A DNA stretch of 64,000 nucleotides from NCBI RefSeq assembly GCF_900188335.1, contig NZ_FZOY01000013.1, positions 1-64,000 of the forward strand. The letters run 5' to 3'. The notes beneath the pieces were generated by a model. That model made no database searches. It was not told the DNA's origin and saw only the letters and a list, made by a program, of their open reading frames with translations. Position 1 is the stretch's first letter, and each line of letters opens with the position of its first letter. Source of the stretch: Tropicimonas sediminicola. GTDB taxonomy: Bacteria; Pseudomonadota; Alphaproteobacteria; Rhodobacterales; Rhodobacteraceae. Of this stretch, positions 5,324 to 35,449 are shown one piece after another. A program made the position numbers and the translations under genes.

Positions 5324-5361
5324 ACATGACCGCGGTCACAGCCGACACCATAGGAAACACA

Positions 5362-6051
5362 ATGGATACCATGAAGATTGCCATTCTTGCCGCCGCGCTT
5401 GCCTGCCTTGGAGCGCCGCTTGCCGCACAATCGCCGAAGCCGGTGGAGCCGGTGACGATCTCCGACATGCGCGGGATGCGGTTCTGCGAGTTCCTGCTGA
5501 TCTACGAGGACCACGTGGACATCTACAACACTTCCGCCTCCGACGGGTGCCCGGAAGACCTCTGGGCCAGCATGGACACTGCGGCGATTGCCGAGGCGCA
5601 TGGCGCGAAAATGGCGCAGCTGAACGGGCCGCATTTCTGGGCGATGGACGGCCAGACGCTTGGCCTTGGCGAGACGGCGGATTTCGGCGGCATGGCGGCG
5701 CGCTATGCCGCGACGCTGCCGCTCGCAGCGCTTGGCTCCGGCAAGGGTGCCGATCCCTACAAGCCCTATGTCAGCGCCAAGCTGCAGACGATGGTCTTCG
5801 AATCCGGAAAGCCGGTCTACCAGCTCGTCGGACCGGACGGCGGCGTCTATATTCTCAACGCCTATGGCGAAGAGGTGCAGGGCGGCGACCCGGCGAACCT
5901 CGCCACGCAACTTTCGCCGGCGGAGGGGTGGAGCTTCCGGACCGAGACCCCGGCGCAGGACCTGACGATCGAGGGCACCTCGGAGACACCGGTCGACATG
6001 GTGGGCGATGACCTCCACCAGTACTACACCCGCATGCAGGGCGCCCAATGA
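5362..6051 (+). CDS. Secreted protein of unknown function
   Basis: A 229-residue protein with a signal peptide (MKIAILAAALACLGAPLAAQ, cleavage after LAA). Its mature part begins with FCEFLLIYEDHVDIYNT, which contains a conserved-looking Cys and acidic residues, with a second Cys in the DGCPEDLW segment. The start at 5362 has AGGA six bases upstream; a further ATG at 5320 overlaps the previous stop codon. No family was recognised. Its stop overlaps the next start (ATGA), so it is translationally coupled to the outer-membrane porin and is probably a periplasmic or exported partner. Confidence 0.6.
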   Translation: MDTMKIAILAAALACLGAPLAAQSPKPVEPVTISDMRGMRFCEFLLIYEDHVDIYNTSASDGCPEDLWASMDTAAIAEAHGAKMAQLNGPHFWAMDGQTLGLGETADFGGMAARYAATLPLAALGSGKGADPYKPYVSAKLQTMVFESGKPVYQLVGPDGGVYILNAYGEEVQGGDPANLATQLSPAEGWSFRTETPAQDLTIEGTSETPVDMVGDDLHQYYTRMQGAQ

Positions 6052-21487: not shown

Positions 21488-23206
21488 ATGAGTGACACCA
21501 AAGCCGGCCGGGGCCTCGCCCGCGGCCTCACGAACTACGGCGATCCGGATTTCTCCGTCTACCTGCGCAACTCCTTCGCCGCCTCGATGGGCTATTCCCG
21601 GGAGGTCCTGCAGAAGCCCATCGTCGGCATCGCCAACAGCGCTTCGGGCTTCAACAACTGCCACCGGCATTTTCCCGAACTGATCGATGCGGTGAAGCGC
21701 GGGGTGCTGCTCGGGGGCGGCCTGCCGATCGAGTTCCCGACGATCTCGCTGGGCGAGGTGTTCCTGAACCCGACGAGCCTCAAGTTCCGAAACCTGATGG
21801 CGATGGATACCGAGGAGATGGTCCGCGCCCAGCCGATGGATGCCGTCGTTCTGGTGGGCGGCTGCGACAAGACCGTGCCGGCCCAGCTCATGGGCGCCGC
21901 CTCGGCCGACCTGCCGGCGGTGCAGCTGGTGGCCGGCCCGATGATGACCTCGCGCTACGGCACCGAGCGGCTCGGCGCCTGCACCGATTGCCGCCGCTTC
22001 TGGGGCAAGTACCGTGCCGGCGAGATCAGCACCGAGCAGATCAACGACATCGAGGGCCGGCTGGCGACGACGGCCGGCACCTGCGCAGTGATGGGCACCG
22101 CTTCGACCATGGCCTGCATCGCCGAGACGCTGGGCATGTCGTTGCCCGGCACGGCGGCGATCCCGGCGGTCCATGCCGACCGCCTGCGCGCCGCCGAGGC
22201 CTCGGGCCTGGCCGCCGCCCGGATGATCGATCACCCGATCCGGCCGAGCGAGGTGATAACCGCGAAGTCGGTGGAGAACGCCATCCGCGTGCTGCTGGCC
22301 CTCGGCGGTTCCACCAATGCGATCATCCACCTGACGGCCGTTGCGGGGCGGCTCGGGATCGATATCGGGCTTGAACGTCTGAATGCGCTCTCCGACGAGA
22401 CGCCGGTGCTGGTGAACCTGAAACCGGTGGGCGAGTACTACATGGAAGATTTCTTCTTCGCCGGCGGCGTCGGCGCCGTGTTGCGCGAGCTGAAACCGCT
22501 CCTTCATCTCGACACGATCTCGGTGACGGGCGAGACCCTCGGTGACAGGTTGGAGCAGGATCCCGGATATGTGGACCGCCGTGTGATCGCTTCCGCCGAC
22601 GCGCCCCTGGAGCCGCAGGGCGGGCTGGTCGCGCTCTTCGGCAACCTCGCGCCGCGTGGTGCGATCCTCAAACGCTCCGCCGCCGACAAGACGCTGTTCG
22701 AACACGAGGGCAGGGCGATCGTGTTCTCCTCGCTGGCCGATCTCGCCGCCCGTGTCGACGACCCGGATCTCGATATCACCGCCGACGACATCATGGTGCT
22801 GCAGAACGCGGGCCCGAAGAGCGCCTCCGGCATGCCGGAGGCCGGCTACCTGCCGATCCCAAGGAAGCTCTCGTCCAAGGGCGTGAAGGACATGATCCGG
22901 GTCTCCGACGCCCGCATGTCCGGCACCGCATTCGGCACCATCGTGCTCCACGTCACCCCCGAAGCGGCGGTGGGCGGCACTCTGGCGCTCGTTCGGACCG
23001 GGGATCGCATCCGGCTCTCTGTCAGCGAGAAACGGATCGAACTGCTCGTCGACGACGCGGAACTGGAACGGCGAAAGGCGGAGCGGCAGCCAGAAACCGT
23101 GCCGCTCGACCAGCGCCGCGGCTACGACTGGCTCTACGCCTCCGAGGTTCTGCAGGCCGACGAGGGCTGCGATTTCGGCTTTCTCAAGCCAAGGCCAGAA
23201 GGCTGA
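21488..23206 (+). CDS. IlvD/Edd-family dehydratase, sugar-acid type
   Basis: A 572-residue iron-sulfur dehydratase. The three cluster cysteines are Cys58 (SGFNNCHRHFPEL), Cys126 (VGGCDKTVPAQLMG) and Cys199 (TTAGTCAVMGTASTMA), with the CDKT lysine as Mg ligand. This spacing is almost exactly that of [2Fe-2S] L-arabinonate/xylonate dehydratases rather than [4Fe-4S] IlvD. The active-site segment SDARMSGTAFG is present. It probably dehydrates an aldonic acid to a 2-keto-3-deoxy acid. It is the last gene of the operon, 9 bases after the aldehyde dehydrogenase. Confidence 0.88.
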   Translation: MSDTKAGRGLARGLTNYGDPDFSVYLRNSFAASMGYSREVLQKPIVGIANSASGFNNCHRHFPELIDAVKRGVLLGGGLPIEFPTISLGEVFLNPTSLKFRNLMAMDTEEMVRAQPMDAVVLVGGCDKTVPAQLMGAASADLPAVQLVAGPMMTSRYGTERLGACTDCRRFWGKYRAGEISTEQINDIEGRLATTAGTCAVMGTASTMACIAETLGMSLPGTAAIPAVHADRLRAAEASGLAAARMIDHPIRPSEVITAKSVENAIRVLLALGGSTNAIIHLTAVAGRLGIDIGLERLNALSDETPVLVNLKPVGEYYMEDFFFAGGVGAVLRELKPLLHLDTISVTGETLGDRLEQDPGYVDRRVIASADAPLEPQGGLVALFGNLAPRGAILKRSAADKTLFEHEGRAIVFSSLADLAARVDDPDLDITADDIMVLQNAGPKSASGMPEAGYLPIPRKLSSKGVKDMIRVSDARMSGTAFGTIVLHVTPEAAVGGTLALVRTGDRIRLSVSEKRIELLVDDAELERRKAERQPETVPLDQRRGYDWLYASEVLQADEGCDFGFLKPRPEG

Positions 23207-23802
23207 CGCAGAGCCGCCGCCGCAGACCCGGCAGTTTCGCCCGAACCTCGCCTATCACGGAAAGCGCGACCCGGCGAGAGTCACCGGTGTCTGTGCGCAT
23301 TTCATGATGTGGTCCCGGCGCGGCATCTTCCGCATCTCGACTCCGAGACGGGCACAAGATATCCGCACATTGGCACGGCACCGCCCGAGCAAGCCGAACG
23401 ACACCCGCACCGGACGACCGTTCAAGTCATCGAAGAGCCCTTCCTGCCGGAACGCCAGTTGGTTGTCTGTCAAACGGTTGGGCTAAAGTTCGCTCAGAAC
23501 CGCCCGCGTCACGGCATGCCGAAACAGATACCCGTCGCGCAGACGAACCCTTACGATCGCAGATGCCAATCCTACACGGCTATCCAACACCCTGCATGCG
23601 CCGTTCCTGGCGCCCTACGACTGTCGTTGGAGTCGGCCTGCACATCATCGGGCAGGAAGGAGATAGGGTGCTACAACGCCCCCGTTTGAACGCTGCCAGC
23701 AACAGATCTGTTGCGCCGAGTGCAGAGAAGCGCGGCCAACCGTCAAACGCCACAGAACGGCAACACCAATCGCGTTCGACTAAGCGTTTGAATGCACTCG
23801 AA
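23207..23802. other. Gene-poor junction upstream of the integrated island
   Basis: About 600 bases without a convincing gene. On the minus strand an open stretch ending near 23480 reads RLRDGYLFRHAVTRAVLSEL then stop, which might be the decayed end of a gene, but it could not be assigned to a family. No transposon ends or terminator were recognised. Its right border is the left attachment repeat of the island. Confidence 0.4.
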
Positions 23803-23854
23803 TTTTGGCTCCGGCGGTAGGGATCGAACCTACGACCAATTGATTAACAGTCAA
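23803..23854. repeat. Left attachment site (tRNA-Asn 3' fragment)
   Basis: A 52-base exact copy of 34353-34404. On the minus strand it holds the tRNA-Asn sequence from the anticodon stem-loop (TTGACTGTTAATCAA) through the T arm to CCA. Past 23854 the sequence diverges, so this copy is not a functional tRNA. It lies 150 bases before the integrase start. Confidence 0.9.
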
Positions 23855-24004
23855 GATTTTCGGCACAACGAGACCTCACGATGTAAAACTGTCGCTCGGC
23901 GTAAGTTCAATGTATCTATTGCATTTTTGTGTGAAAGTGGCCATGGTTCCTAACGTGGGGTAACGGTCCTTAACCGGGCAATCTGTTACCCCTGTGTTAC
24001 CCCG

Positions 24005-25276
24005 ATGGACAAATTGACTATGGCAAGAGCGCTCACGACCAAGGCAGTTGAAGCCCTGAAGCCCGACCCCGAGCGGCGCTTCGAAATGCCAGATCCGGCC
24101 TTGTCGGGCCTTTATCTGGTGGTGCAGCCGAGCGGCGCGAAGTCCTGGGCACTACGCTATCGCTATGGCGGGAAGCCCAAGAAGCTGACGCTTGGGAAAT
24201 GGCCTGTCATGGGCGTTGCCGATGCGCGTGCTGCTGCGACGGATGCAATCGACACGCTGGAGCACGGCAAAGACCCGAGCGCAGCCAAGAAGAGGACAAG
24301 GGCCGCACGACTGGAAGCGCAGCTATCGGAACGGGACAAGCTAAAGACGCTGGTGGAGCAATACGCCAAGCGGCATCTTTCGACCCTCAAGACCGGCGCA
24401 ACCGTGAAGCGCGAACTTGAACGCCATGTAGTCAGCCAATGGGGCGACCGGGACATTCACGATCTTGCAAAGCGAGACATAATCGACCTGCTTGACGGGA
24501 TCGCGGATAGTGGGCGCGTCGTGACCGCAAATCGCGTTCGGGCCTACCTCTCGAAGTTCCTTAGCTGGTGCGTGGAAAGGGATATTCTGGACGCATCCCC
24601 GGCGACGGGCGTAAAGCCGATTGCGAAGGAGGCCAGCCGGGATCGCGTGCTGAGCGACGATGAAATTCGCTGGCTCTGGCTAGCCTGCGAAGCAGTGGGG
24701 CAACCTTGGGGGCCGCTCGGCAAAGTGTTGTTGCTGACCGGCCAGCGTTTGGGCGAGGTTGTCGGCATGACCGACAGCGAGATTGACGGAGACCTGTGGC
24801 ACCTTCCTGCGGCAAGGGTGAAGAATGGCAGAGCGCACGACGTGCCACTGTCAGCCGCCGTGTGCGACGTTCTGGCGGGCATTGAACGCATCGACGGGCC
24901 AGCGGGCCTCTACCACACGACGAACGGCACAACGCCACTGAGCGGCTTCCACAAGGGCAGGGGGCACCTTGCCGAACGGATGGCTGAGATTGCCAGTCAG
25001 GAAGCCGGCCAGCCTGTCGAAGTTCCGCATTGGACCTTCCATGATCTGCGCCGCACAGCCGCAACCGGTATGGCCCGGCTCGGCATTCCCGTGCGCGTGA
25101 CGGAGGCAGTTCTAAACCACGTCAGCGGCACCGGTGGCGGCATCGTGGCTGTTTATCAACGCCACGACTATGCCGACGAAAAGCGGGCCGCACTGGACGC
25201 CTGGGCGCGGTCCGTGATGGATCTGGTGGAGGGCAGTGCGGACAACGTGGTGCAAATCGGGAACCTAAGGCAATGA
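24005..25276 (+). CDS. int: Tyrosine-recombinase integrase
   Basis: A 423-residue P4-type integrase. The N-terminal DUF4102-like arm-binding domain (residues about 8-95) shows YLVVQPSGAKSWALRYRYGG and KKLTLGKWPVMGVADARAAA. A core-binding SAM-like domain spans about 115-205. The catalytic domain has Arg248 (LTGQRLGEVVG), Lys in RVKNGRAHDVPLS, His346 and Arg349 (FHDLRRTAATGMA), His372 (VLNHVSG) and nucleophile Tyr384 (VAVYQRHDY). It should integrate and excise the island at the tRNA-Asn gene. It lies at the end opposite the intact tRNA. The stop overlaps the next start (ATGA). Confidence 0.95.
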   Translation: MDKLTMARALTTKAVEALKPDPERRFEMPDPALSGLYLVVQPSGAKSWALRYRYGGKPKKLTLGKWPVMGVADARAAATDAIDTLEHGKDPSAAKKRTRAARLEAQLSERDKLKTLVEQYAKRHLSTLKTGATVKRELERHVVSQWGDRDIHDLAKRDIIDLLDGIADSGRVVTANRVRAYLSKFLSWCVERDILDASPATGVKPIAKEASRDRVLSDDEIRWLWLACEAVGQPWGPLGKVLLLTGQRLGEVVGMTDSEIDGDLWHLPAARVKNGRAHDVPLSAAVCDVLAGIERIDGPAGLYHTTNGTTPLSGFHKGRGHLAERMAEIASQEAGQPVEVPHWTFHDLRRTAATGMARLGIPVRVTEAVLNHVSGTGGGIVAVYQRHDYADEKRAALDAWARSVMDLVEGSADNVVQIGNLRQ

Positions 25277-25935
25277 CCGGTCACAAATACAGCGTTCATC
25301 TGACTATGGCCGAATGGCGGATCGCTACGAGCGAAGAGATCGATATCGAGCAATTTCTCTGGGAATCCGCCGAACCAAATAGCGAGCTGGAACGTCGGGA
25401 GCTGGCGTCGGCGCGAGAGGCGCTCCGGTCTATCGACCTGTTAAAAACCACAGGTCGATACAACGATGAAAGGTCGCGCCTCAAGAAGGCGCTAGACGAA
25501 GATGATGCAGCGGCTGCCGAGGAATTTCGCAAGGCGAACCCAAGCTTGATCCTACGCTCCGAGGGGGTGCCGAGCCGAAGTTCGATAGGCGCGCTTGCGA
25601 ACTTGTTTGCTGGTATGGATAGCCCCGACCGCGACCAACAGGCGCGTTTTCAAGCACATTACGATGCGACTGGCATAGCATCCGAGACGCTTGCGAAGGC
25701 GATGCCGAAGATCGCAGCCCTGGAGCCTGCCAAGAGGAGGCGTGGGCGTTCCAAGGTTTCTCCGCCTTGGCGGAATGTGAATCTGCATCTGGACGCCATA
25801 AGACTTGCGGTGGCCGGCGGTTCTTCTGTGGCGCAGGCGGCAAGACAGGTGGCCGCGCAAGAGGCGTTCATTCGGGCTGATTGGGCCAATGACCTAGCGA
25901 AGCTGTACCGGAAGAAATTGAAGCTTCGGGAATAA
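25273..25935 (+). CDS. Unknown protein with C-terminal HTH-like region
   Basis: A 220-residue protein translationally coupled to the integrase (ATGA). It is acidic and helical in the N-terminal half (ELERRELASAREALRSIDLL). The C-terminal 45 residues read as a helix-turn-helix-like segment followed by a basic helix (LAVAGGSSVAQAARQVAAQE, then KLYRKKLKLRE). No family was recognised. Its position suggests an early regulator or a DNA-binding packaging factor, possibly a replacement for the small terminase, which is otherwise missing from the island. Base composition looks more AT-rich than the host core genes. Confidence 0.6.
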   Translation: MTGHKYSVHLTMAEWRIATSEEIDIEQFLWESAEPNSELERRELASAREALRSIDLLKTTGRYNDERSRLKKALDEDDAAAAEEFRKANPSLILRSEGVPSRSSIGALANLFAGMDSPDRDQQARFQAHYDATGIASETLAKAMPKIAALEPAKRRRGRSKVSPPWRNVNLHLDAIRLAVAGGSSVAQAARQVAAQEAFIRADWANDLAKLYRKKLKLRE

Positions 25936-26021
25936 ATTAAGCCCGATTTTTCCCCCTGCGACATGCGACGGGAAATGTGAATATTGGGAAGCACCTCACG
26001 TTCTAACGAAGGTGCAACCCA

Positions 26022-26210
26022 ATGGAACACAAGCGAATCCCGGCGAAAGATGTGCGCGCCATGTGCGGCGGCGTGTCCGACATGTCGCTCTGGCGCTGGT
26101 TGAATGACCCGACGCTGAATTTCCCGAAGCCAATCTATATCGCCCGTCGCCGCTACTGGCGTGAGGCCGATGTGATCGCGTGGCTCGACGCTCGCGAGGT
26201 GGCGGCGTGA
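26022..26210 (+). CDS. AlpA-family HTH regulator/excisionase
   Basis: A 62-residue AlpA/MerR-like winged HTH: VRAMCGGVSDMSLWRWLNDP, then FPKPIYIARRRYWREADVIA and WLDAREVAA. This matches the AlpA consensus in which the wing arginine-rich segment precedes the W-E-ADV-AW helix. AlpA proteins activate integrase expression in P4-like satellites and PICIs. The stop overlaps the GTG of the following small gene. Confidence 0.88.
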   Translation: MEHKRIPAKDVRAMCGGVSDMSLWRWLNDPTLNFPKPIYIARRRYWREADVIAWLDAREVAA

Positions 26211-26548
26211 GAGATCATCTAGCGGGACAAGAAAACCCCGGTGCGGCGGCAACCGCGACCGGGGCTGAAAACTGTGAAGAAGCTTCTCGACTTCGCCGCC
26301 AATGTACCCCGAAACGGCGCCGAAACGCAATGTCCTTGTACGCCGAACCGGCCCACAAGGCGGCGGCTCGGATGGTCGGATATGCGCTGACCCTCCGCAG
26401 CGATTACGGCAACGCGGCTGCTGCTTTGGTGTTTCGTCACCGGCTCGACGCGGCCGACCGGATGGTGCTGGTTACGGCAATTCTCGACAGCCTGAGCGAC
26501 CAGGAATTCGCCGGCGTGATCCGGCATTTCTTGGAGGGCGCCGCGTGA
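26207..26548 (+). CDS. Small island protein of unknown function
   Basis: Up to 113 residues from the GTG at 26207, which overlaps the AlpA stop (GTGA). A shorter start at ATG 26330 would give 72 residues beginning MSLYAEPAHKAAARMVGYAL. The C-terminal part (ALVFRHRLDAADRMVLVTAI, then FAGVIRHFLEGAA) is helical and looks like an ordinary small phage protein. The stop overlaps the start of the ATPase gene. No function is assigned. Confidence 0.55.
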   Translation: MRDHLAGQENPGAAATATGAENCEEASRLRRQCTPKRRRNAMSLYAEPAHKAAARMVGYALTLRSDYGNAAAALVFRHRLDAADRMVLVTAILDSLSDQEFAGVIRHFLEGAA

Positions 26549-27960
26549 TGGCTGACGGCGGAGCATTCACCCCGGCGGCGCCGGATGACGAGTACATCAA
26601 GCCTGTCTCGATCCCGTTCATGGATGAAGATGGCACCTTCTGGCTGACTGCTGGCACTGACTACCTCGACAGGCGGGAGTTTCGCCCCTGTATCTTGCTC
26701 GGGGGCAGTAGCCCGGAGCGTTGGGACTTCGACAGGGAGATCTCGGTTCCTACGTCGATGGAGCGAATGGAATACTTCGCGCGCGCCCGCGTGCGATGGT
26801 TGGATGGCTCCGAAGGCTTGGTGCCGGGTGCCTGCCTCGTTGGCTTCACCGAAGACGCCGATAACCTCGACCCGCCGCCGCTCACAATTCTGAGCTATGA
26901 CGACATGTTGGCGATGCCGGACCCGGCATGGCTGGTTCAGGGCGTGATCCAAGAGGCAACCTCGGCGCTTCTGTTTGGCAAGTCGAATGCCTTCAAGTCC
27001 TTCCTGGGCATTGACCTCGGCTGTTCGGTGGCAACCGGGACACCGTGGCATGAGCAGGCAGTAAGCGGGCCGGCTCCGGTTCTCTACGTTGCCACCGAAG
27101 GTTCGCGGGGCGTGGGCAAGCAACGCATTCCCGGCTGGATGGAAGCGCACCAGATCCCGGCCGACCTCCGCAAAAACATGTTCCTCTATCCGCAGGAGAT
27201 CGCACTGGATGACGACAAGGCCGTGTCGGACCTCCTGCAGACATGCGCGCACGTAAATGCAAGCCGAGTTCTGGCTAGGGGCGGTCGCGTTGGGAACCTC
27301 AAAGATCCGAAGGGCGCCTTCGCGCTGGTGGTGGTGGATATCTTCGGCGCGTCCATGATGGGGCCGGAGACTTCGGACGAAACCGCCCGCGCCTGGGTGC
27401 GCAATATCAACCGCATCATGCGCGAGGTTGGTTGTGCGGTCCTGACAGTAGCGCACACCGGATGGGCCGATGACAGCCGCGCCCGGATGCACACGCACTT
27501 CTGGGGCAGCTTCGACAGCCGCATGAAGGCCGAAGGCGACAAGGCTAGCCTAACCACTGTGTTGCGCATCGACCGCCACAAGGACGAGGACAGCACGGGC
27601 GAATGGGGCTTCCAGCTTGAGAAGGTTGCCACGCCAAGCGGCCGAACAACGCTGGTTCCGCGCCTGTCCAGCGACGTGAAGACGACCAAGGGCAATCGCC
27701 TGAAAGGGCAACAGCACACAGCCATGCAAGCGCTCTCCGAAGCGCTGATCGAGCACGGCACGCGCGTCACCGCGCCGAGCTTGCCGTCCTGCCCGATTGT
27801 CACCATCGACCAGTGGCAGACCATGTGCGAGCGCCACGGCCTGACCGACAGCACGGACAAGCAGACAGTCGGACGTGTCTTCCGGCGGAACCGGGATGCG
27901 CTCCGCGACAAGGGCTTGATCAAGATCTTCGACGGATTCGTTTGGAAGGTGGATCAATGA
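26548..27960 (+). CDS. RepA-like AAA ATPase (replication helicase type)
   Basis: A 470-residue protein with a RecA/AAA_25-type core. The Walker A is in SALLFGKSNAFKSFLGIDLG (near residue 140) and the Walker B in GAFALVVVDIFGASMMGPET. VLTVAHTGWADDS follows, a sensor-like segment. The fold fits plasmid RepA/RSF1010-type hexameric helicases used by phages and satellites for replication initiation. The C-terminal 80 residues are winged-helix-like (CERHGLTDSTDKQTVGRVFR, then KGLIKIFDGFVWKV). It overlaps the previous gene and is directly followed by the repeat-rich segment that may be its origin. Confidence 0.8.
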   Translation: MADGGAFTPAAPDDEYIKPVSIPFMDEDGTFWLTAGTDYLDRREFRPCILLGGSSPERWDFDREISVPTSMERMEYFARARVRWLDGSEGLVPGACLVGFTEDADNLDPPPLTILSYDDMLAMPDPAWLVQGVIQEATSALLFGKSNAFKSFLGIDLGCSVATGTPWHEQAVSGPAPVLYVATEGSRGVGKQRIPGWMEAHQIPADLRKNMFLYPQEIALDDDKAVSDLLQTCAHVNASRVLARGGRVGNLKDPKGAFALVVVDIFGASMMGPETSDETARAWVRNINRIMREVGCAVLTVAHTGWADDSRARMHTHFWGSFDSRMKAEGDKASLTTVLRIDRHKDEDSTGEWGFQLEKVATPSGRTTLVPRLSSDVKTTKGNRLKGQQHTAMQALSEALIEHGTRVTAPSLPSCPIVTIDQWQTMCERHGLTDSTDKQTVGRVFRRNRDALRDKGLIKIFDGFVWKVDQ

Positions 27961-28196
27961 CTTGGCTGCGGACGGACAACGGACAATCGCGGACACGTCC
28001 GGACTATCCGCACGCGGACGGACACGGACACCCCCTTATAAGGGTGTCCGCTGTCCGGGCCTGCAGTCCTGGCAGGGAAGCGGACAGAACTGTCCGTGCC
28101 AATCTGGTCCCAATGCCTCCTTTGCCAAGAAGGGGGGAAACCGCCCACCCAACTGTTGCGTTCTCTCTCCCGAAAAAATTCTGGGGGGTGATCTGA
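27957..28196 (+). CDS. Doubtful small open frame over the GGAC repeats
   Basis: A 79-codon frame beginning with an ATG that overlaps the ATPase stop (ATGA) and ending on the A of the terminase start. The coupling at both ends is suggestive, but the translation is dominated by Arg, Pro, Gly and His produced by the GGAC repeats and resembles no protein. The region may instead be a non-coding replication or packaging site. Confidence 0.25.
   Translation: MTWLRTDNGQSRTRPDYPHADGHGHPLIRVSAVRACSPGREADRTVRANLVPMPPLPRRGETAHPTVAFSLPKKFWGVI
27970..28095. repeat. Cluster of GGAC/GTCC repeats with a hairpin, candidate origin or packaging site
   Basis: Within about 125 bases GGAC occurs nine times on the plus strand (27970, 27974, 27981, 27991, 28001, 28016, 28020, 28026, 28082) and GTCC five times (27997, 28046, 28053, 28066, 28092). 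At 28025-28050 the arms CGGACACCC and GGGTGTCCG flank an AT-rich centre (CCTTATAA), a strong hairpin. It lies between the RepA-like gene and terL, where a replication origin or pac/cos site would be expected. Confidence 0.5.
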
Positions 28197-29728
28197 TGGC
28201 TCGGGCATCCAAAGAGGCGGCGGCGGCGCTCCGGTTCCTTCCCAAGCTGATCGTTCCCGAGGGCCGGACGGCCGGGAAGCCGTTGAAGCTGGCCGGCTAC
28301 CAGAAGGACTTTGTTCGGGGCGCCTTCGCCAAGGACATTGCGGCGGGCGTTCTCAGCATTGGCCGGGGCAACGCCAAGACGGCGCTCTCGGCGGGCATCG
28401 CGCTCGGGCATCTGATGGGCGAGATTGCCCCTCAGCCGAAACGCGAGATCATCTTCGCGGCTCGGAACCGGGATCAAGCCAAAATTGCCTTCGGCTTCCT
28501 GGTCGGGTTCATCGAGGGCTTGCCGGAGGAAGACCGGGAGCAATTCACCATCCGGCGCGGCTCCAAGTTGGAAGTCGAGACAGCCGAGAATGGCGGCGGG
28601 CTGGCGCGGGTGATCGCGGCCGATGGCAAGTCGATCCTCGGCGGCGCTCCGACGCTGGCAATCCTTGACGAGCGGGCAGCGTGGGAACGTGAGAAGGGCG
28701 ACAGCCTGGAAAACGCGATCCTCTCCGGCCTGGGCAAGCGAGACGGCCGCGCGCTTATCATCTCGACCTCGGCGCCGGACGACGCGAACACCTTCAGCCG
28801 GTGGCTCGATGAACCCCCGCCCGGAACATATGTGCAGGAACACCGGCCGGAACCGGGCTTGCCGCCCGACGACCTGGAAAGCCTCCTGATCGCCAATCCC
28901 GGCGCCCGTGAGGGTATCGGTTCGACGCCCGAATGGCTGGTGGCGCAGGCGCGGCGGGCAATCGCCCGTGGTGGCTCGGCGCTGTCTTCCTTCCGCAACC
29001 TCAACCGCAACGAGCGTGTTGCCTCGGATGATCGGTCGGTGCTGGTCACGGTGGACGAGTGGTTGGCGGCTGAGGCATCGCCCGACGAGCTGCCAGAGCG
29101 TGGCGGGCCGGTGATCCTCGGCGTGGATCTCGGCGGTTCCCGCTCCATGTCTGCAGCGGCGCTCTACTGGCCGGAAACGGGCCGTCTAGAGGTGATGGGG
29201 GCATTCCCGACGCAACCGGGACTTGGCGACCGTGGGGCCGCTGACGGCGTTTCCGGGCGCTACATCGAAATGGCCGAGCGCGGCGAGCTGGTGACGATGG
29301 GCGAGACGACCGTGCCTGTTGATCGGTTCCTCGCAGACGTGGCGGCAAGGCTCGATGGGCAGACACCGGCGGCGATCTGTGGCGACCGGTTCCGGCACGC
29401 GGAATTCCTTGAGGCGCTTCGCGGTGCCGGTCTCGACAAGGTGCCGGCTGTCTGGCGCGGCATGGGCTGGAAGGACGGCTCCGAGGACGTGGAGCGGTTC
29501 CGGCGGGCGTTGTTCGAGCAGAAGGTGCAGACCCTTCCGTCGCTGCTGCTGCGGTCTGCCTTCGCTGACGCAATCACCATCGTTGATCCGGCTGGCAACC
29601 ACAAACTCGCCAAGGGCCGCTCGACCGGCCGCATAGACGCGGCGGCGGCGACTGTCCTGGCGGTGGCGCAGGGCATTCGGATGACGAGCGCACCCAAGGG
29701 CAACGGGGGGCGCATCGCATGGGGCTGA
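28196..29728 (+). CDS. terL: Phage terminase large subunit
   Basis: A 510-residue HK97-type (Terminase_1) large terminase. The ATPase domain has a Walker A-like loop (VLSIGRGNAKTALSAGI, near residue 55), Walker B with catalytic Glu (LAILDERAAW) and coupling motif (LIISTSAPDD). The RNase H-like nuclease domain starts near 305 (VILGVDLGGSRSMSAAAL) and has a second acidic site in AICGDRFRHAEF. It would cut and pump DNA into proheads. A GGGGGGTGAT precedes the ATG at 28196. No recognisable small terminase gene is adjacent. Confidence 0.92.
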   Translation: MARASKEAAAALRFLPKLIVPEGRTAGKPLKLAGYQKDFVRGAFAKDIAAGVLSIGRGNAKTALSAGIALGHLMGEIAPQPKREIIFAARNRDQAKIAFGFLVGFIEGLPEEDREQFTIRRGSKLEVETAENGGGLARVIAADGKSILGGAPTLAILDERAAWEREKGDSLENAILSGLGKRDGRALIISTSAPDDANTFSRWLDEPPPGTYVQEHRPEPGLPPDDLESLLIANPGAREGIGSTPEWLVAQARRAIARGGSALSSFRNLNRNERVASDDRSVLVTVDEWLAAEASPDELPERGGPVILGVDLGGSRSMSAAALYWPETGRLEVMGAFPTQPGLGDRGAADGVSGRYIEMAERGELVTMGETTVPVDRFLADVAARLDGQTPAAICGDRFRHAEFLEALRGAGLDKVPAVWRGMGWKDGSEDVERFRRALFEQKVQTLPSLLLRSAFADAITIVDPAGNHKLAKGRSTGRIDAAAATVLAVAQGIRMTSAPKGNGGRIAWG

Positions 29729-30057
29729 GAGAGAAATGGGACCGGCCGTCACGGGCTGTCACGCGCACCCAGCGGTGGAAGGCGCTGCGGATGCAGGCGC
29801 TAGAGCGCGACGACTGGCGCTGTGTTCGCTGCGGCGAGCGGCGGCGCCTCGAAGTGGATCATATCGAACCGGTGCGCACGCGCCCGGATCTCGCTTTCGA
29901 CCTGGGCAACCTGCAGGTGCTTTGCGGCCGCTGCCATGCCCGGAAGACCAGAATTGAGGTTGGCCTGGGCCAGCCCAATCCCGCCCGCGAGGCGTGGAAC
30001 AACCTGCTGCGGGAAATGCAGCGAAACCCTTCGAGCTACGGAGACAAAAATGCTTGA
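29719..30057 (+). CDS. HNH endonuclease
   Basis: A 112-residue HNH nuclease with two CxxC zinc knuckles around the active site: RCVRCGERRRLEVDHIEPV and LQVLCGRCHARKT. It overlaps terL by 10 bases. In HK97-type phages and in cf-PICIs an HNH protein next to terminase assists cos cleavage, so its location fits a packaging role. Confidence 0.92.
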   Translation: MGLREKWDRPSRAVTRTQRWKALRMQALERDDWRCVRCGERRRLEVDHIEPVRTRPDLAFDLGNLQVLCGRCHARKTRIEVGLGQPNPAREAWNNLLREMQRNPSSYGDKNA

Positions 30058-31348
30058 ATCGAAGAAACTGGAGCTTCGCCGCTCCGAGATCCGGCAGGAG
30101 CTGGCCGTGCTGGCAGCCAAGCCGGAGCCGACCGAGGACGAAGTGCGCAGCATGGAAAACCTCGACAAGGAATATCGGACTGCCGAGGTGCGCTTCCGCG
30201 CGGCTCTGACGGCCGAAGACACCGAACGCCGCGAGGCGGGTGCCGAACTTGAAACCCGCTCCGGCAAGGAATGGGCCGAGATGATGGGCCGTTTCGAGAT
30301 GCGGCAGGTTGCGCTTGCTCTCGATGAGGGCAGGGCGCTTGATGGCGCAACGGCCGAGATCGTGACCGAACTGCGCGAACAGGGCGGCTACCGTGGCATT
30401 CCGGTGCCGTGGGCGGCTCTGGAAAAACGGGCCGGCGAGACTGTCGCCAGCGGCACGCCCGACCCGATCAGCACCCGACCCGTGATTGACCGGCTGTTCC
30501 CTGACAGCGTGGCCGGCAAGATGGGCGCTCAGATGATTACCATCGAGAGCGGCGCGACCGAATGGCCGGTGGTTACTTCCAGCGTCTCGGCGGGCTGGGC
30601 CGATGGCGAGACCGCCAACGTTGCGGGGCCGTCTGTCTTCGCCACGACCGACAAGGCGCTCAAGCCCGAGCAGAACCTGGGCATTCAGATGCGGATCACC
30701 CGCAAGGCGCTCAAGCAATCCGGCGCCGCTCTGGAACAGGCTGTCCGGCGCGACATGAACTCTGCCATGCAGGCGGAACTCGACAAGGCGATCTTCCTTG
30801 GCACGGGCGCCAACGGGCAACCGCTCGGCGTTGTGGCGGGCGCCTCGACCTACGGCATCAATGACACCGACCTTTCGGCGGTGCCGACCTATGCCCACTT
30901 CCTGGCCGAAGTGGTGGCGTTCATGTCTGCCAACACCATCACTTCGCCGGAGCAGATCCGGGCGCTTCTGCGTCCTGAGCTGTTCGGCTACCTCGAAGGG
31001 CAGGTGAACGCGGATCTGCAGATTACCGAGTATCACCGCTTTGCGTGGCTGCTGGCCGGCCGGCAGGCAGCGCCGGGAACCTTCCCGAGCAACATCACCA
31101 CCACGTCGAACGCCCTGGCAACCCCGAGCGGATCGCCGGAGGAAACCTCGATGCTGCTGACCACCAGCACCGGCGGCGTTGCTCCGATCTTCTGCGGTCT
31201 CTGGGGCGCGGTGGACATGATCCGCGATCCGTTCTCCGACGCTCAGTCGGGCGGGCTGCGGATCACGGCGCTTGCCACGGCAGACGTGACGGTTGCACGT
31301 CCGGCGCAGCTCCGGCTGCTGTCCGGCATCCAACTCTCGGCGTCCTAA
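30050..31348 (+). CDS. HK97-family major capsid protein
   Basis: A 432-residue protein. Residues 1-110 form a charged coiled coil (KKLELRRSEIRQELAVLAAK), the delta/scaffold domain removed by the prohead protease in HK97-like phages. The capsid fold follows, with MRITRKALKQSGAALEQAVR, LDKAIFLGTGANGQPLGVVA and the C-terminal strand LRITALATADVTVARPAQLR. The start at 30050 follows GGAG and overlaps the HNH stop. Together with the following protease it should assemble a procapsid encoded by the island itself. Confidence 0.9.
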   Translation: MLESKKLELRRSEIRQELAVLAAKPEPTEDEVRSMENLDKEYRTAEVRFRAALTAEDTERREAGAELETRSGKEWAEMMGRFEMRQVALALDEGRALDGATAEIVTELREQGGYRGIPVPWAALEKRAGETVASGTPDPISTRPVIDRLFPDSVAGKMGAQMITIESGATEWPVVTSSVSAGWADGETANVAGPSVFATTDKALKPEQNLGIQMRITRKALKQSGAALEQAVRRDMNSAMQAELDKAIFLGTGANGQPLGVVAGASTYGINDTDLSAVPTYAHFLAEVVAFMSANTITSPEQIRALLRPELFGYLEGQVNADLQITEYHRFAWLLAGRQAAPGTFPSNITTTSNALATPSGSPEETSMLLTTSTGGVAPIFCGLWGAVDMIRDPFSDAQSGGLRITALATADVTVARPAQLRLLSGIQLSAS

Positions 31349-31349
31349 G

Positions 31350-31922
31350 ATGCTTTGGGCCGGTTCCAAAGGCGGGCTTGAGGTCCGCACCTCTGCGGAC
31401 GGGGCAACCCGTCTGCGGGGCCGGTTCCCGTATTCGACCCCGACCGTTCTTCGCGGCGGTCGGGAGCCGAGGCGGGAAGTATTCGAGGCGCGGGCGTTCG
31501 GCGCGTCGGTGGCTGACGGGGGCGATATTCACCTCCTGGTGCACCACGACTTCGACCGGCCGCTCGCATCGCGGTCGGCGGGAAGCCTTGAGATCCGGGA
31601 CGGCGACGACGCCTTGACCTTCGAGGCGGTGATCGCGCCGGAAATGCGTGAGGTGTCCTACGTTGCTGACTTCCTCGGCACCCTCGCGGCCGGGCTGGTC
31701 GGCGGCATCTCTCCGGGCTTCCGGGTGCCGGAAGGCGGCGACCGTGTGAAGCGGGACGGGCAGGGCCTTATGCGCGTGGTGAAAACGGCCGATCTGATCG
31801 AGGTCTCTGCCGTCACCAAGCCTGCCTACCCCGACGCTCAGGTTGAGGCGCGAAACTGGGGCAGAGCGGCGCCGGAAGGGGCCGTGAACCGCCAAGCGGC
31901 AATGCTGCGGTGGAGGGCATGA
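31350..31922 (+). CDS. HK97-family prohead protease
   Basis: A 190-residue S78-type protease that cleaves the capsid scaffold domain. The catalytic His lies in HLLVHHDFDRPLASR, followed by GSLEIRDGDDALTFEAVIAP and the Ser in IEVSAVTKPAYPDAQV. Only one base separates it from the capsid stop, and its stop overlaps the next start. The order capsid then protease is the reverse of the usual portal-protease-capsid order in HK97-like phages. Confidence 0.88.
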   Translation: MLWAGSKGGLEVRTSADGATRLRGRFPYSTPTVLRGGREPRREVFEARAFGASVADGGDIHLLVHHDFDRPLASRSAGSLEIRDGDDALTFEAVIAPEMREVSYVADFLGTLAAGLVGGISPGFRVPEGGDRVKRDGQGLMRVVKTADLIEVSAVTKPAYPDAQVEARNWGRAAPEGAVNRQAAMLRWRA

Positions 31923-32464
31923 TGATTGACGTTCTGGAACGAACCGAGGCGATCCCGGCCAGCTATCCGGCCGTGACGACCTATGCGCACCTTGAGCAAT
32001 ACACCGGCGACATGTTCCCGACGCTCGACCCGGATGAGATTTGGCAGCGCATCGAGGCTTACACCGCATTCCGGTGGAGCGAGCGCGAAGTCACCTGGAT
32101 CATCGAAGGCTCCGGCCAGTGGAAGCCGGATCTAACCCCGGCGACTGTGACGGCAACTGAGGTTTGGTTTGCCGATGCATGGGCGCCGGTGGAACTGACA
32201 CCTTCCGCGGTTGGCGGCTACGTCTTTGCCGGTGATGGGCCGTATCGGATCACGGCGACCGTGGGCGGGGGCACCGTTCCCAAGGCCGTCGAGGAAGCAT
32301 GGCGGCGGCTTCACGAATACAGCCGGGGCGTGGCTGACGCCTACCTCGGCTCACAGGCGCTTCGCTCGCGAGGCGACAGCGAAACAATCACCGGCTGGGC
32401 GGGCAAGGCGCTGCAACTGAGCGGTGCTGCTGACCTTCTGCGGCCTTACAGGAGGGCGCCGTGA
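31919..32464 (+). CDS. Phage head-tail connector protein
   Basis: A 181-residue protein that starts at ATG 31919 or 31922, with GGAGGG just upstream. It has the pattern of gp6-like/DUF-type connectors: a first helical part (PDEIWQRIEAYTAFRWSERE), a beta-rich insertion (EVWFADAWAPVELTP, then GPYRITATVGGG) and a final helical part (VEEAWRRLHEYSRGVADAYL). It overlaps the portal gene (GTGATG). It would close the head at the portal and offer the docking surface for a tail. Confidence 0.7.
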   Translation: MMIDVLERTEAIPASYPAVTTYAHLEQYTGDMFPTLDPDEIWQRIEAYTAFRWSEREVTWIIEGSGQWKPDLTPATVTATEVWFADAWAPVELTPSAVGGYVFAGDGPYRITATVGGGTVPKAVEEAWRRLHEYSRGVADAYLGSQALRSRGDSETITGWAGKALQLSGAADLLRPYRRAP

Positions 32465-33513
32465 TGTGGTGGCCATTCAAGAAACGACCGGAGGCCGAAA
32501 CCCGTTCGGCCGGCTCCGGGTTCACTGCCGAGATCATGGCGGCGCGGGAGGCGTATATCTCCGGCCGCCAGGGCGTGGGCGAACTGACGGGCACCGTGCA
32601 AGCCTGTGTAAGCCTCTGGGAAGGCGGTCTCGGGCTGGCCGATGTGGCGGGCACCGACATACTAGACCGGCGCACGCTGGCGCTCTGTGGGCGCTCTCTG
32701 GCGCTTCGTGGGGAAGCGGTGTTCCTGATCCGGGACGATATGTTGGTGCCGTGTTCCGATTGGGATTTGCGCACCCGCAACGGCAAGCCGACAGCCTATC
32801 GGCTCTCGGTTTCCGAGGCTGGCGGCGGCAGGACGCAGACCGCGCTTGCGGGCGAGGTGCTGCACTTCCGAACCGGAGTTGATCCGGTGGCGCCCTGGGC
32901 GGGGCAGGCGCCGCTGCGGCGGGCGCAGCTTACGGCCGGGATGCTGCAGGCAGTCGAGGCGGCACTGGCGGAGGTTTACGAGTATGCCCCGCTTGGATCT
33001 CAGGTGATCCCGTTTCCCGAGGCGCCCGATACGGACATGACCAGCCTTGCCCGTGGGTTCCGTGGCTACCGGGGGCGGGTGCAGATCCGCGAGTCGGTCA
33101 ACGTCACTGCGGCCGGTGGACCGGCGCCGACACAGGACTGGAAGCCTTCCGACCTAACCCCGGATCTCAGCCGAGCCATGACGGCGCAAAGCCTCGATGC
33201 CGCCCGCGACTCCGTGTGCATGGTGTTCGGTGTGCTGCCGGCAATGGTCAACCCGTCTGCCACGGGGCCGCTGATCCGCGAGGGCCAGCGACACCTCGCT
33301 CAATGGATGCTGCAGCCAATCGCGGCGGCGATGGCCGACGAGATCTCCGACAAGCTCGGCGCCTCGGTGGCAATCGACGTGATGCGGCCGCTGCAGGCGT
33401 TCGACGCGGGGGGCAGGGCGCGGGCACTGACATCGATTGTGAACGCCCTGGCGCAAGCCAAGGAAGCCGAGGTCGATCTGGGGCCAGCGATGAAGCTGGT
33501 CGATTGGGACTAG
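32461..33513 (+). CDS. Phage portal protein (HK97 type)
   Basis: A 350-residue portal protein starting at GTG 32461 or ATG 32464. Recognisable segments are VQACVSLWEGGLGLADV, RTLALCGRSLALRGEAVFLI, PLRRAQLTAGMLQAVEAALA and the clip/stem region SVCMVFGVLPAMVNPSATGP followed by LIREGQRHLAQWMLQPIAAA. It is slightly shorter than the 400-residue HK97 average. It is the last gene of the head module. Confidence 0.85.
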   Translation: MMWWPFKKRPEAETRSAGSGFTAEIMAAREAYISGRQGVGELTGTVQACVSLWEGGLGLADVAGTDILDRRTLALCGRSLALRGEAVFLIRDDMLVPCSDWDLRTRNGKPTAYRLSVSEAGGGRTQTALAGEVLHFRTGVDPVAPWAGQAPLRRAQLTAGMLQAVEAALAEVYEYAPLGSQVIPFPEAPDTDMTSLARGFRGYRGRVQIRESVNVTAAGGPAPTQDWKPSDLTPDLSRAMTAQSLDAARDSVCMVFGVLPAMVNPSATGPLIREGQRHLAQWMLQPIAAAMADEISDKLGASVAIDVMRPLQAFDAGGRARALTSIVNALAQAKEAEVDLGPAMKLVDWD

Positions 33514-33944
33514 GGCTGGTGTTGTCCTAGGGCCGGCCGCTCGCCTCAGAAGGGGCCGAAGGTGGCAAGCGTCACTCCGGTTTCGGCAGCAGCAAAAACA
33601 GCGCGATTACAGAGAGAAACACGACCAACTCGATACCAATAAAACCAAACATACAGACCCCCATGCCTACAACTCACTCCGACAGGATGAAGGAGATCAC
33701 TGCCCGATGCACCATGACCAAAGGCTCAGTGTCGTGTTCGACTTGGGCGACAATCAATCGATTTGGCCCGGAGTTGCTCGTGTCGCGGGACAAGTAGGCC
33801 GGTTGCGCTGATCGCGCGCGGAATCATGACGCCAAGCGATCCGGTATAGTCGGGCAGTCACGTCAGAACCCCGACAGCGCGCGGCCCTTTTCTGTGAGGG
33901 GGCGCGGCGCGCACATCAATAGACCTTAGCGAGAGATACCGAAA
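33514..33944. other. Mostly non-coding segment near the right end of the island
   Basis: About 430 bases with no large gene. It contains one credible small minus-strand peptide gene (33572-33652). The rest shows no family-like frame or hairpin terminator. This is where a tail module would begin in a complete prophage. Confidence 0.5.
33572..33652 (-). CDS. Small hydrophobic membrane peptide
   Basis: A 26-residue frame, with one membrane helix running from FIGIELVVFLSVIALFLLL and a short charged tail (PKPE). GGGGG lies six bases upstream of the ATG on the minus strand. It is the only minus-strand frame of the island and could be a holin-like, toxin-like or regulatory peptide; nothing more can be said from sequence. 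Confidence 0.4.
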   Translation of the reverse strand: MFGFIGIELVVFLSVIALFLLLPKPE

Positions 33945-34175
33945 ATGACCGACAAGCCAAACAATCGTGAACTCAAGGTGCTGGATTATCTGTGCCTCGG
34001 CAACGTGGAGGAACTGGCAGCGATGCCACATATCGGCATGGGCACCATTGCGCCGATGATCCAGAAAGGTTGGATCGAGGAAGCTCACGACGCTTACTAC
34101 GGGCGCCACGGCTATAAGATCACGCAGAAAGGGAGCGAAGTGTTCGAAGTGTTCTTCCGGCGGCTCAAGCGCTGA
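33945..34175 (+). CDS. Small winged-helix-like protein
   Basis: A 76-residue protein. NRELKVLDYLCLGNVEELAA and GWIEEAHDAYYGRHGYKITQ followed by KGSEVFEVFFRRL read as a compact winged helix ending in a basic helix. No family was recognised with certainty. A good intrinsic terminator follows at 34229. Its place at the tRNA-proximal end suggests a regulatory or superinfection-type accessory gene. Confidence 0.55.
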   Translation: MTDKPNNRELKVLDYLCLGNVEELAAMPHIGMGTIAPMIQKGWIEEAHDAYYGRHGYKITQKGSEVFEVFFRRLKR

Positions 34176-34228
34176 TACCGTGGCGGCGCAGCGCATCGAG
34201 CGGAAAGCGAAGGTGCCGAACAACTCAG

Positions 34229-34258
34229 GGCCGAAGGCAATTGCTTTCGGCCTTTTTT
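34229..34258 (+). terminator. Intrinsic terminator at the right end of the island
   Basis: Arms GGCCGAAGGC and GCTTTCGGCC (one G-T wobble) with an AATT loop are followed by six T residues. It ends rightward transcription before the minus-strand tRNA-Asn. Confidence 0.85.
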
Positions 34259-34352
34259 GCCTCGAATGCGTTACCCCAAACGTTACCCCTGCGCGGATCT
34301 GCGCTAAGTGATATCTGGTGGGTAGCTTTCAAATCTCTGTTATTGTGAGATT

Positions 34353-34404
34353 TTTTGGCTCCGGCGGTAGGGATCGAACCTACGACCAATTGATTAACAG
34401 TCAA
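34353..34404. repeat. Right attachment site within tRNA-Asn
   Basis: Identical 52 bases to 23803-23854. This copy restores a complete tRNA-Asn, so the island integrated at the 3' part of the gene including the anticodon loop. Confidence 0.9.
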
Positions 34405-34430
34405 CTGCTCTACCGCTGAGCTACGCCGGA
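34356..34430 (-). tRNA. tRNA-Asn (GTT)
   Basis: A 75-nt cloverleaf on the minus strand. The acceptor stem TCCGGCG pairs with CGCCGGA, followed by G and an encoded CCA. The D arm is GCTC/GAGC, the anticodon arm GTTGA-CTGTTAA-TCAAT has anticodon GTT, and the T arm is GTAGG/CCTAC with TTCGATC. The island lies at its 3' side. Confidence 0.97.
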
Positions 34431-34441
34431 ACACGGGTGGC

Positions 34442-34470
34442 GATATAGCAACGGGGTCTGGGGGCGTCCA
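34442..34470 (-). promoter_or_regulatory. Probable promoter of tRNA-Asn
   Basis: On the minus strand TGGACG (34465-34470) and TATATC (34442-34447) are separated by exactly 17 bases and end about 12 bases before the tRNA 5' end. Each hexamer matches 4 of 6 consensus bases. Confidence 0.5.
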
Positions 34471-34510
34471 GAGGAAATTTCACATTTCCTTCGTGCTTCG
34501 CCGACGCGGT

Positions 34511-35407
34511 TCACGCGATGCGAAAACGTGCGGTTTCGGAGGGGTTACCGTCGCAGATGACTTCGCCGCGGGACATGAGATCCAGCAGGTGGGCGAAGAC
34601 GTTGCGGGCGGCGGCGGGCAGGAGAGCGGGCGGTGTGTCGGTGTAGATTCGGCGGGTGAGGGTGTCGATTGCCAGCGGGTCAGTCCCGAGTTCCTCGAGC
34701 AGGCGGGCCTCCCGGCTGCGGCGATGGGCGACCAGCCAGGCGAGGCGGGCGGCCGGATCTTCCACCGGGGCACCGTGGCCCGGATAATAGATTCGGTCAT
34801 TTCGCCGAGCCAGGCGGGCGCAGGTGGCCATGAAGGCCGTCAGGTCGCCGTCGGGCGGGGAGACCATCGAAGAGGCCCAGCCCATCACGTGATCGCCGGT
34901 GAAAAGCGCATCTCCCAAGGCAAAGGCAAGGTGGTTTGACGCATGGCCGGGCGTGTGAAGGGCGCGCAGGGTCCAGCCGGCGCCCTGGATCTCGTCGCCG
35001 TCGGCCAGCAGGCGGCCGGGCTCGAAGTCGAGGTCGGCGCCTTCGCCGCCGCCAGAGAGGCCGTCCGCCGCCAGTTGCGCCATCATCGGGGAGCGTCCGG
35101 CCTCGTGGCGCCCGAACCCCAGCACCTCCGCGCCCGTGGTTTCCGCCAGCCGGCGGGCGAGGGAGGAGTGGTCCAGGTGGGAGTGGGTGACCAGAATATG
35201 CGAGATGCGCTCGCCTGGCCGCAGCGCAGCCAGTATCGCCGCGTGGTGTGCCTCGAGGTCCGGGCCGGGGTCGATCACCGCCACCTCTCCCTCGCCGACG
35301 ATGTAGCTGTTGGTGCCCTGATAGGTCATCGGAGAGGGATTGGGCGCCAGCACGCGGCGCAGCCCGGGCTCGAGGCGGGAGAGAGCGTTGGAGGCGGGAT
35401 CGGACAT
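34511..35407 (-). CDS. Metallo-beta-lactamase-fold hydrolase
   Basis: A 298-residue MBL-fold protein of the LACTB2/glyoxalase II-like group. Metal motif THSHLDHSS (HxHxDH), the later ligand His in LHTPGHASNHLAF, Asp in LFTGDHVMGW and His in YYPGHGAPVEDP are all present. The N-terminal MTYQGTNSYIVGEGEVAVID is typical of this subgroup. The C-terminal 60 residues are a winged-helix-like extension (AARNVFAHLLDLMSRGEVIC). The start at 35407 is chosen over much longer upstream frames, which are non-coding. It diverges from the histidine kinase gene. Confidence 0.85.
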   Translation of the reverse strand: MSDPASNALSRLEPGLRRVLAPNPSPMTYQGTNSYIVGEGEVAVIDPGPDLEAHHAAILAALRPGERISHILVTHSHLDHSSLARRLAETTGAEVLGFGRHEAGRSPMMAQLAADGLSGGGEGADLDFEPGRLLADGDEIQGAGWTLRALHTPGHASNHLAFALGDALFTGDHVMGWASSMVSPPDGDLTAFMATCARLARRNDRIYYPGHGAPVEDPAARLAWLVAHRRSREARLLEELGTDPLAIDTLTRRIYTDTPPALLPAAARNVFAHLLDLMSRGEVICDGNPSETARFRIA

Positions 35408-35449
35408 TTCGGCATTTCTCTCGGCATGGCGGGGCGCTAGCGTTGTGCC

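Follow-up and report, generated by a model that had tools for sequence, protein, structure and literature searches.

A tail-less island with head genes in Tropicimonas sediminicola belongs to a large alphaproteobacterial family of probable phage satellites

The window analyzed here comprises positions 1 to 64,000 of contig NZ_FZOY01000013.1 (64,000 nucleotides) of Tropicimonas sediminicola, assembly GCF_900188335.1. It holds an island of 10,602 bp (positions 23803-34404) with all called genes on the plus strand. We interpret the island, with a probability of about 0.85, as an integrated phage satellite that would make its own heads and take tails and lysis from a helper. The island is not an isolated case but one of a large coherent family with hundreds of members. 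A feature reported here as new is a conserved motif, TGGTCCCAATGCC, on the coding strand upstream of the terminase large subunit gene (terL).

A recurrent tail-less unit with head genes

The island is bounded by a 52-nt direct repeat in two identical copies, the sole exact long repeat pair within positions 22500-36500. A sequence-only reading of this DNA had listed exact att repeats, an integrase, AlpA, a RepA-like ATPase and an HK97-type head module of compact, overlapping and intact genes, with neither tail nor lysis functions. The inventory held up when the window genes were assigned by Pfam and PHROG profile matches (Table 1), the AlpA matches being weak. TerL, HNH endonuclease, capsid, protease and portal were each recognized by family, the genes from terL to portal abut or overlap, all frames are open in the window copy, and no tail or lysis family was matched among the island's proteins. 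The connector was recognized by fold only. This 180-aa protein had no Pfam or PHROG match. In a Foldseek search with its AlphaFold model (mean predicted local distance difference test score 84.9), the first- and third-ranked matches were neck proteins, from Agrobacterium phages 7-7-1 and Milano (E 0.01 and 0.035, probability 0.97 and 0.92, respectively), with nothing at E 0.001 or better. The protein is likely a head-tail adaptor.

A capsid search of 394 genomes from the same family gave matches in 57. Identity was at least 52% in 40 of these, the T. sediminicola genome being counted and some matches covering part of the protein. At class level, 9 of 385 genomes (own included) gave a match, one of them outside the family and close (63%). 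A capsid-profile scan of named genomes confirmed 202 relatives out of 302 pattern matches, and at least 503 were found in IMG/VR; the best 80 of each set were kept. Among the best 80 of the 202, the named hosts are mainly Rhodobacteraceae, including Rhodobacter capsulatus (DSM 1710, L131), Ruegeria pomeroyi (SZCCDBG043, L102), Roseovarius and Thioclava, with further members in Sphingobium, Erythrobacter, Aurantimonas, Chelativorans, Jiella and Reyranella. One relative lies on a short contig of an Oceanospirillaceae metagenome-assembled genome (MAG), possibly mis-binned.

Altogether 215 loci with a capsid match were analyzed. Since some come from identical genomes, they were clustered at 97% DNA identity, which left 163 distinct loci. 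A simple gene caller was used, and in loci of differing composition some genes escaped it. The complete order terL, hnh, capsid (mcp), protease, (adaptor), portal was present in 144 of the 163, so the head module is more than a chance assembly. The remaining 19 comprise one circular permutation (L091) and loci missing at least one gene, at least partly from contig ends. A search of relatives, which the sequence-only reading had proposed, revealed a large family with conserved gene order. Among 71 distinct fully flanked elements, a bounding direct repeat was found in 64 (at least 40 bp long in 34) and the repeat touched a tRNA gene in 59, with 13 tRNA amino-acid types represented. The tRNA-anchored units have a median length of 10,351 bp (range 8,076-11,750 bp). 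The smallest was delimited by a repeat of 14 bp and is possibly spurious.

The head genes are under strong purifying selection. Frames were open in 750 of 761 tests of five head genes (contig ends excluded). Median ratios of nonsynonymous to synonymous substitution rates (dN/dS) were 0.125 for terL (20 pairs) and, with 25 pairs each (the maximum used), 0.112 for the capsid, 0.083 for the portal, 0.119 for the protease and 0.186 for hnh. Decay, as read from stops within some capsid matches, was ruled out: on re-reading, 159 of 160 capsid frames run through.

The head proteins are distant from those of known phages. In tblastn comparisons with 50,697 phage records, no match was obtained for the portal (E 1e-5) or the adaptor (E 0.01). 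The capsid matched 26 records, with at most about 29% identity among the 20 matches listed, and TerL matched 140, with about 31% identity among the 12 listed. Within the PDB the capsid profile matched only one capsid chain, 8gta.

Integration and replication genes vary across the family. Some elements have the integrase at their left end, others at their right, and replication is represented by AAA_25 ATPases, RepO-like proteins or primases. The adaptor gene is placed between protease and portal or to the left of terL. A subset of relatives has head-closure proteins, which are of two kinds, and the neck proteins among relatives comprise Hc1, Ad1, head-tail adaptor and tail completion/Neck1. 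Two relatives were assembled as closed circles, L091 (unit of 9,940 bp, from a metagenome) and L144 (10,340 bp, Gemmobacter serpentinus; coverage 941 according to its sequence record). No integrase was detected in either, and their replication genes are of the D5 primase type or unassigned; they are possibly satellite-plasmids. Two distant tail-less elements, L069 and L070, at tRNA-Thr and tRNA-Pro, match the family in size and resemble it in head order, with capsids 27-32% identical, hinting at a wider group beyond the family.

TABLE 1. Features of the island and of related loci (positions refer to the window unless a locus is named)
Feature	Position	Strand	Basis or remark
attL	23803-23854	none	52-bp exact copy of tRNA-Asn 3' half
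Tyrosine integrase	24005-25276	+	phrog_1, 4e-64
orf220, no assigned function	25273-25935	+	41% identical protein next after the integrase gene in island L277
AlpA/HTH_17-like, excisionase-like helix-turn-helix protein	26022-26210	+	weak: Pfam 0.0041, below cut-off; phrog_66, 9e-6
orf72, small, no assigned function	26330-26548	+	relatives in several family elements
RepA-like AAA_25 ATPase/helicase, replication	26548-27960	+	1e-24
GGACA/TGTCC array, candidate iterons/origin	27961-28104	none	word count versus dinucleotide shuffles
TGGTCCCAATGCC motif, candidate cos/packaging site	28105-28117	+	91 bp before terL
Terminase large subunit TerL, HK97 type	28196-29728	+	phrog_9, 9e-61
HNH endonuclease	29719-30057	+	phrog_144, 1e-22
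HK97-type major capsid protein	30050-31348	+	PF05065, 5e-13
Prohead protease, S78 family	31350-31922	+	3e-17
Probable head-tail adaptor, 180 aa, neck type	31922-32464	+	fold only
Portal protein	32464-33513	+	PF04860, 5e-12
orf76, 76 aa, no assigned function	33945-34175	+	next to attR; sole gene called between portal and attR
attR	34353-34404	none	52-bp exact repeat within tRNA-Asn, covers its 3' half
tRNA-Asn (gtt), integration site, intact	34356-34430	-	equivalent site present in same-genus genomes
Other island at the same tRNA-Asn, same genus	L277 2244-11659 (G801:C12)		capsid and small terminase
Third island at the same tRNA-Asn	L278 4217-14874 (G800:C150)	-	capsid, portal, small terminase
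Second head-gene unit	L486 1055-13413 (G823)		adjoins family member; also primase and integrase
Second head-gene unit	L492 11843-18858 (G828)	-	adjoins family member

Two small proteins, orf220 and orf72, come in addition to those named in the sequence-only reading. Because its relative follows the integrase gene in the different island L277, orf220 probably belongs to the integration and regulation section rather than to the head section.

That reading had also expected the 10-11 kb unit at tRNA-Asn in other strains. The unit does recur at constant size, but at 13 tRNA types, and among the tRNA-Asn sites of the genus some appear empty and some hold other islands. The site can be recognized by the conserved genes to its right; no such conservation exists on the left flank of the window. 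In genomes G802, G007, G798 and G804 the whole-genome match list gave no second near-identical att copy, and the site looks empty, judged by this absence only, with 7.5, 1.3, 8.1 and 15.6 kb, respectively, fetched past the tRNA gene. In G799 and G803 a second att copy lies on another contig. Island L277 in G801 has an integrase, orf220 and AlpA that are 79%, 41% and 75% identical to the window types; beyond AlpA it differs, the place of the head module being taken by one HK97 capsid gene and a small terminase, and it is perhaps a capsid-redirecting satellite. One integration unit can therefore carry different packaging genes. In L278 the integrase is another one (30% identical).

Genomes G094, G330 and G377 have two close capsid matches each, so one host can carry two such satellites. 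Element L064 is larger (12.1 kb) and contains a 543-aa gene (5250-6881, minus strand), which we take to be an IS66-type transposase and which would account for the size. PADLOC, applied to 116 non-core proteins of relatives, returned five families with one or two members each and no clear defence cargo.

A strictly placed motif upstream of terL

The sequence GGCATTGGGACC or its complement was present in 98 of 136 distinct 900-bp regions before terL; after one shuffle by dinucleotide blocks, any 12-mer reached at most 3 regions. With up to two mismatches allowed, the 13-bp TGGTCCCAATGCC was found in 132 of 144 elements (exact in 95), in every one of the 132 on the coding strand. It precedes the terL start, as placed by tblastn, by 56-91 bp in 120 elements (usually about 70 bp) and by 287-612 bp in 12. 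With up to one mismatch, exactly one copy was counted in 117 of the 132 loci and two in 2. Islands L277 and L278 have no near-exact copy on the expected strand. A scan with two 15-mers of the motif fetched 188 new loci, 137 of which carry the family head genes; the other 51 are probably chance matches.

Because the TerL and HNH genes lie beside it and no small terminase was found, we propose that TGGTCCCAATGCC marks a cos/packaging site. Contig ends were tried as a map of cos and set aside, the cases being too few. Among 202 exact motif copies in 282 IMG/VR loci, contigs L239 and L344 begin exactly 25 nt upstream of the motif and L434 ends 24 nt downstream; L249 (one mismatch) begins 26 nt upstream. 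These four give a weak hint of a physical DNA end near the motif.

The window genome contains one other exact copy of TGGTCCCAATGCC, and none of a control pattern. It lies in L477 (G000:C11) at C11:23021-23033 on the minus strand, about 250 bp after a gene that is presumably primase-like. No family head genes were seen beside it; the site might be packaged by the satellite terminase or might belong to a decayed member.

A candidate origin precedes the motif in the window. Nine GGACA/TGTCC words lie in the 235-bp gap after the ATPase gene (27961-28195), a count reached in none of 2000 dinucleotide shuffles, and the array resembles an origin that may be read by its own initiator. A hexamer repeated at least six times was seen, with no control, in the corresponding stretch of 13 elements, 5 of them with an ATPase match.

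From these parts a cycle can be proposed. A helper phage would turn on the AlpA-like regulator, the integrase would excise the element at the 52-bp att sites, and the RepA-like ATPase would act on the GGACA array and replicate the circle. TerL and HNH would then cut and package the DNA at the site marked by TGGTCCCAATGCC just upstream of terL. Capsid, protease and portal would form the head, the adaptor would ready the neck for docking of a helper tail, and the particle would be released by helper lysis, its injected DNA integrating at tRNA-Asn. As a parallel for the regulator, AlpA is reported to act as a helper-dependent activator in the Escherichia coli phage-inducible chromosomal island (PICI) EcCICFT073 (PMC6092414). 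Particles, head size, helper identity and the borrowing of tails are what we infer from this anatomy.

Tail supply and alternative explanations

Tail functions were also sought in relatives. The PHROG scan took in 30 bounded elements and covered 116 of their 191 non-core proteins. Among the 25 of 78 matched families that were listed, the tail side was represented by neck-type proteins only ("tail completion or Neck1," two members), and neither tail tube nor tape measure appeared in the proteins scanned.

No small terminase (TerS) was recognized in the island. The sole TerS-type match in the window was a secondary match of the HNH protein to phrog_4581. The TerS family PF05119 was found in 5 of 27 carrier genomes and was absent from the T. 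sediminicola genome; by coordinate arithmetic, none of its 12 matches lies inside the element of the respective carrier, with PF05119 as the search profile and a divergent TerS, or one of another family, possible. That orf220 serves as small terminase is unlikely, because the related protein in L277 coexists with a TerS of that island's own.

Longer records were considered as possible complete phages. Among 94 listed IMG/VR contigs with the capsid, the longest measures 21,088 bp and most are about 10 kb or shorter, which could pass for phage fragments; the motif search returned records beyond that length, the largest of 26,790 bp, in which family head genes are present. Eight long records were fetched, a set outside which L362 (25,864 bp) and L471 (20,479 bp) lie. 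In all eight the surplus sequence is outside the unit, and no tail family was found among the 13 of 77 called surplus proteins scanned; their interpretation as complete phages was rejected. The surplus includes type I restriction genes in G824 and G825. In G823 and G828 it includes a second, unrelated head-gene unit, whose large terminase is of the GpA type and whose protease and capsid are fused in one gene; this unit may be another kind of head-making satellite arranged in tandem.

The island could also be the deletion remnant of an ordinary prophage that lost its tail and lysis genes. Its small size, the missing modules, the lack of a recognized head-closure gene in the window copy and the mostly non-coding DNA beside attR would fit such an origin. 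This explanation is strongly disfavoured, to the point of being very improbable, and was rejected because a tail-less unit of fixed size (about 10.35 kb) recurs at many tRNA sites and in many genera with its head genes under purifying selection. The perfect att repeat, the lack of close matches to the head proteins among the phage records and the content of the long IMG/VR records speak against it as well. Neither intact tailed relatives of the unit nor gene decay, the marks of a defective prophage, were found. According to the sequence-only reading, a remnant would be betrayed by relatives in which tail and lysis genes fill the span from portal to attR; none was seen, this span being only 273-4672 bp in the 64 fully flanked elements with a bounding repeat. 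Just as improbable is an autonomous, tail-independent entity, be it a transfer particle or a plasmid-like element. The two closed circles without detected integrase and the element's own replication gene would agree with it, but the portal, the probable neck adaptor and the head-closure proteins of some relatives are parts for tail docking, and there is no lysis gene.

Tails might instead be supplied by a chromosomal gene transfer agent (GTA) of the host. PF04860 portals of the HK97 type occur in the window genome only in the island and in a GTA-like cluster, L258 (G000:C14:97000-116500), which we take, from gene order, to be an RcGTA-like head and tail cluster; of its genes only the portal was tested by family. 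Since this cluster sits elsewhere in the genome, the island itself was rejected as a GTA locus. The capsid gene of the cluster was matched in 317 of 388 family genomes. Of 40 close satellite carriers, 38 appear in the match list as read by us (odds ratio 4.7, p 0.018, uncorrected for phylogeny). Among 24 chosen carriers, however, the GTA capsid was matched in only 18, with at least 70% identity in only 10, and was absent from Erythrobacter rubeus, Altererythrobacter, Reyranella soli and MAGs of Citromicrobium, Ponticaulis and Natronohydrobacter. A GTA is thus not needed everywhere, and its role as obligatory helper in general was rejected. Moreover, no shared neck protein or motif was shown, the GTA stretch having no copy of TGGTCCCAATGCC with fewer than three mismatches. 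Tail supply by the GTA is accordingly improbable, and the same low probability attaches to the bolder proposal that satellite heads in Rhodobacterales, packaged without small terminase at TGGTCCCAATGCC, would receive GTA tails and spread without any phage. A phage helper is the simplest reading.

Several observations weigh against a helper-dependent satellite as described here. No helper prophage was found in the window genome in a search for PF04860 portals, no other portal family being searched. The small terminase was not found, and the window element lacks a recognized head-closure protein, which some relatives have. In the scan of relatives, 75 of the 191 non-core proteins lay outside the scan and 53 of the 78 PHROG families outside the listing, and bounding repeats under 20 bp have no shuffled control. 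At up to two mismatches, TGGTCCCAATGCC is missing from 12 of 144 loci, and neither L069 nor L070 has a copy with fewer than two mismatches; the motif could alternatively be a promoter, an operator or another regulator site.

Relation to known systems

With these relatives, a single curious island becomes one of a large coherent family of putative head-making satellites in Alphaproteobacteria. How a TerL-HNH pair selects DNA through a strictly placed 13-bp motif, with no recognizable small terminase, can be tested concretely in this family. It can also be asked whose tails the heads take, in a group of hosts where both phages and gene transfer agents are possible suppliers. No account of such satellites in Rhodobacterales or other Alphaproteobacteria was found in the literature covered, which includes few subscription papers, so that an earlier listing is possible; the marine elements described in PMC12324425 are other, unrelated ones.

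HK97-like siphophages HK75, HK446 and HK633 resemble the island in TerL (about 31% identity across 91% of the protein) but are complete, 36-42 kb long and equipped with tails of their own. Gene transfer agents of the RcGTA type have HK97-type head genes in the same hosts, as the island does. They differ in including tail genes and in occupying, under the name we presume for it, a separate locus in the window genome; the island is att-bounded and is no head and tail cluster at one locus. In the satellites MulchRoom and MiniFlayer of Streptomyces phages, packaging and capsid genes are satellite-encoded as here, whereas their helpers are virulent, their ends are direct terminal repeats and their hosts are others (PMC10690885). 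The Vibrio satellite-plasmids called cf-PISP are circular, capsid-forming, tail-less and devoid of integrase (PMC13230959). Relatives L091 and L144 resemble them in all these respects, no integrase having been detected, but measure 9.94 and 10.34 kb with other replication genes, in contrast to 15.8 kb with parA and repA. The window element, with its integrase and att sites, is not episomal in this sense.

The closest likeness by description is to capsid-forming PICIs (cf-PICIs), with EcCIEDL933 as prototype: satellites with their own capsid, protease, portal, connector, TerL and HNH and without tail. The definition in PMC10690885 names a capsid, a protease, a portal, connectors, HNH and both subunits of the terminase, and a review states that their capsids form three clades (PMC11389934). 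The island has the capsid, head protease, portal, TerL and HNH, a connector recognized by fold only, an integrase, a weakly matched AlpA-type regulator, a replication gene and att sites, and no tail or lysis genes. Its family differs in that no small terminase was found, in the conserved TGGTCCCAATGCC motif and in its hosts, which are Alphaproteobacteria in nearly all of the best 80 of 202 named records. Of the cf-PICI-like satellite that the sequence-only reading had suggested, the head genes of its own, the missing tail and the distinction from a remnant stand. Strict membership does not, because the small terminase was not found. The island is therefore not filed as a cf-PICI in the strict sense; judged by its anatomy, it would work like one.

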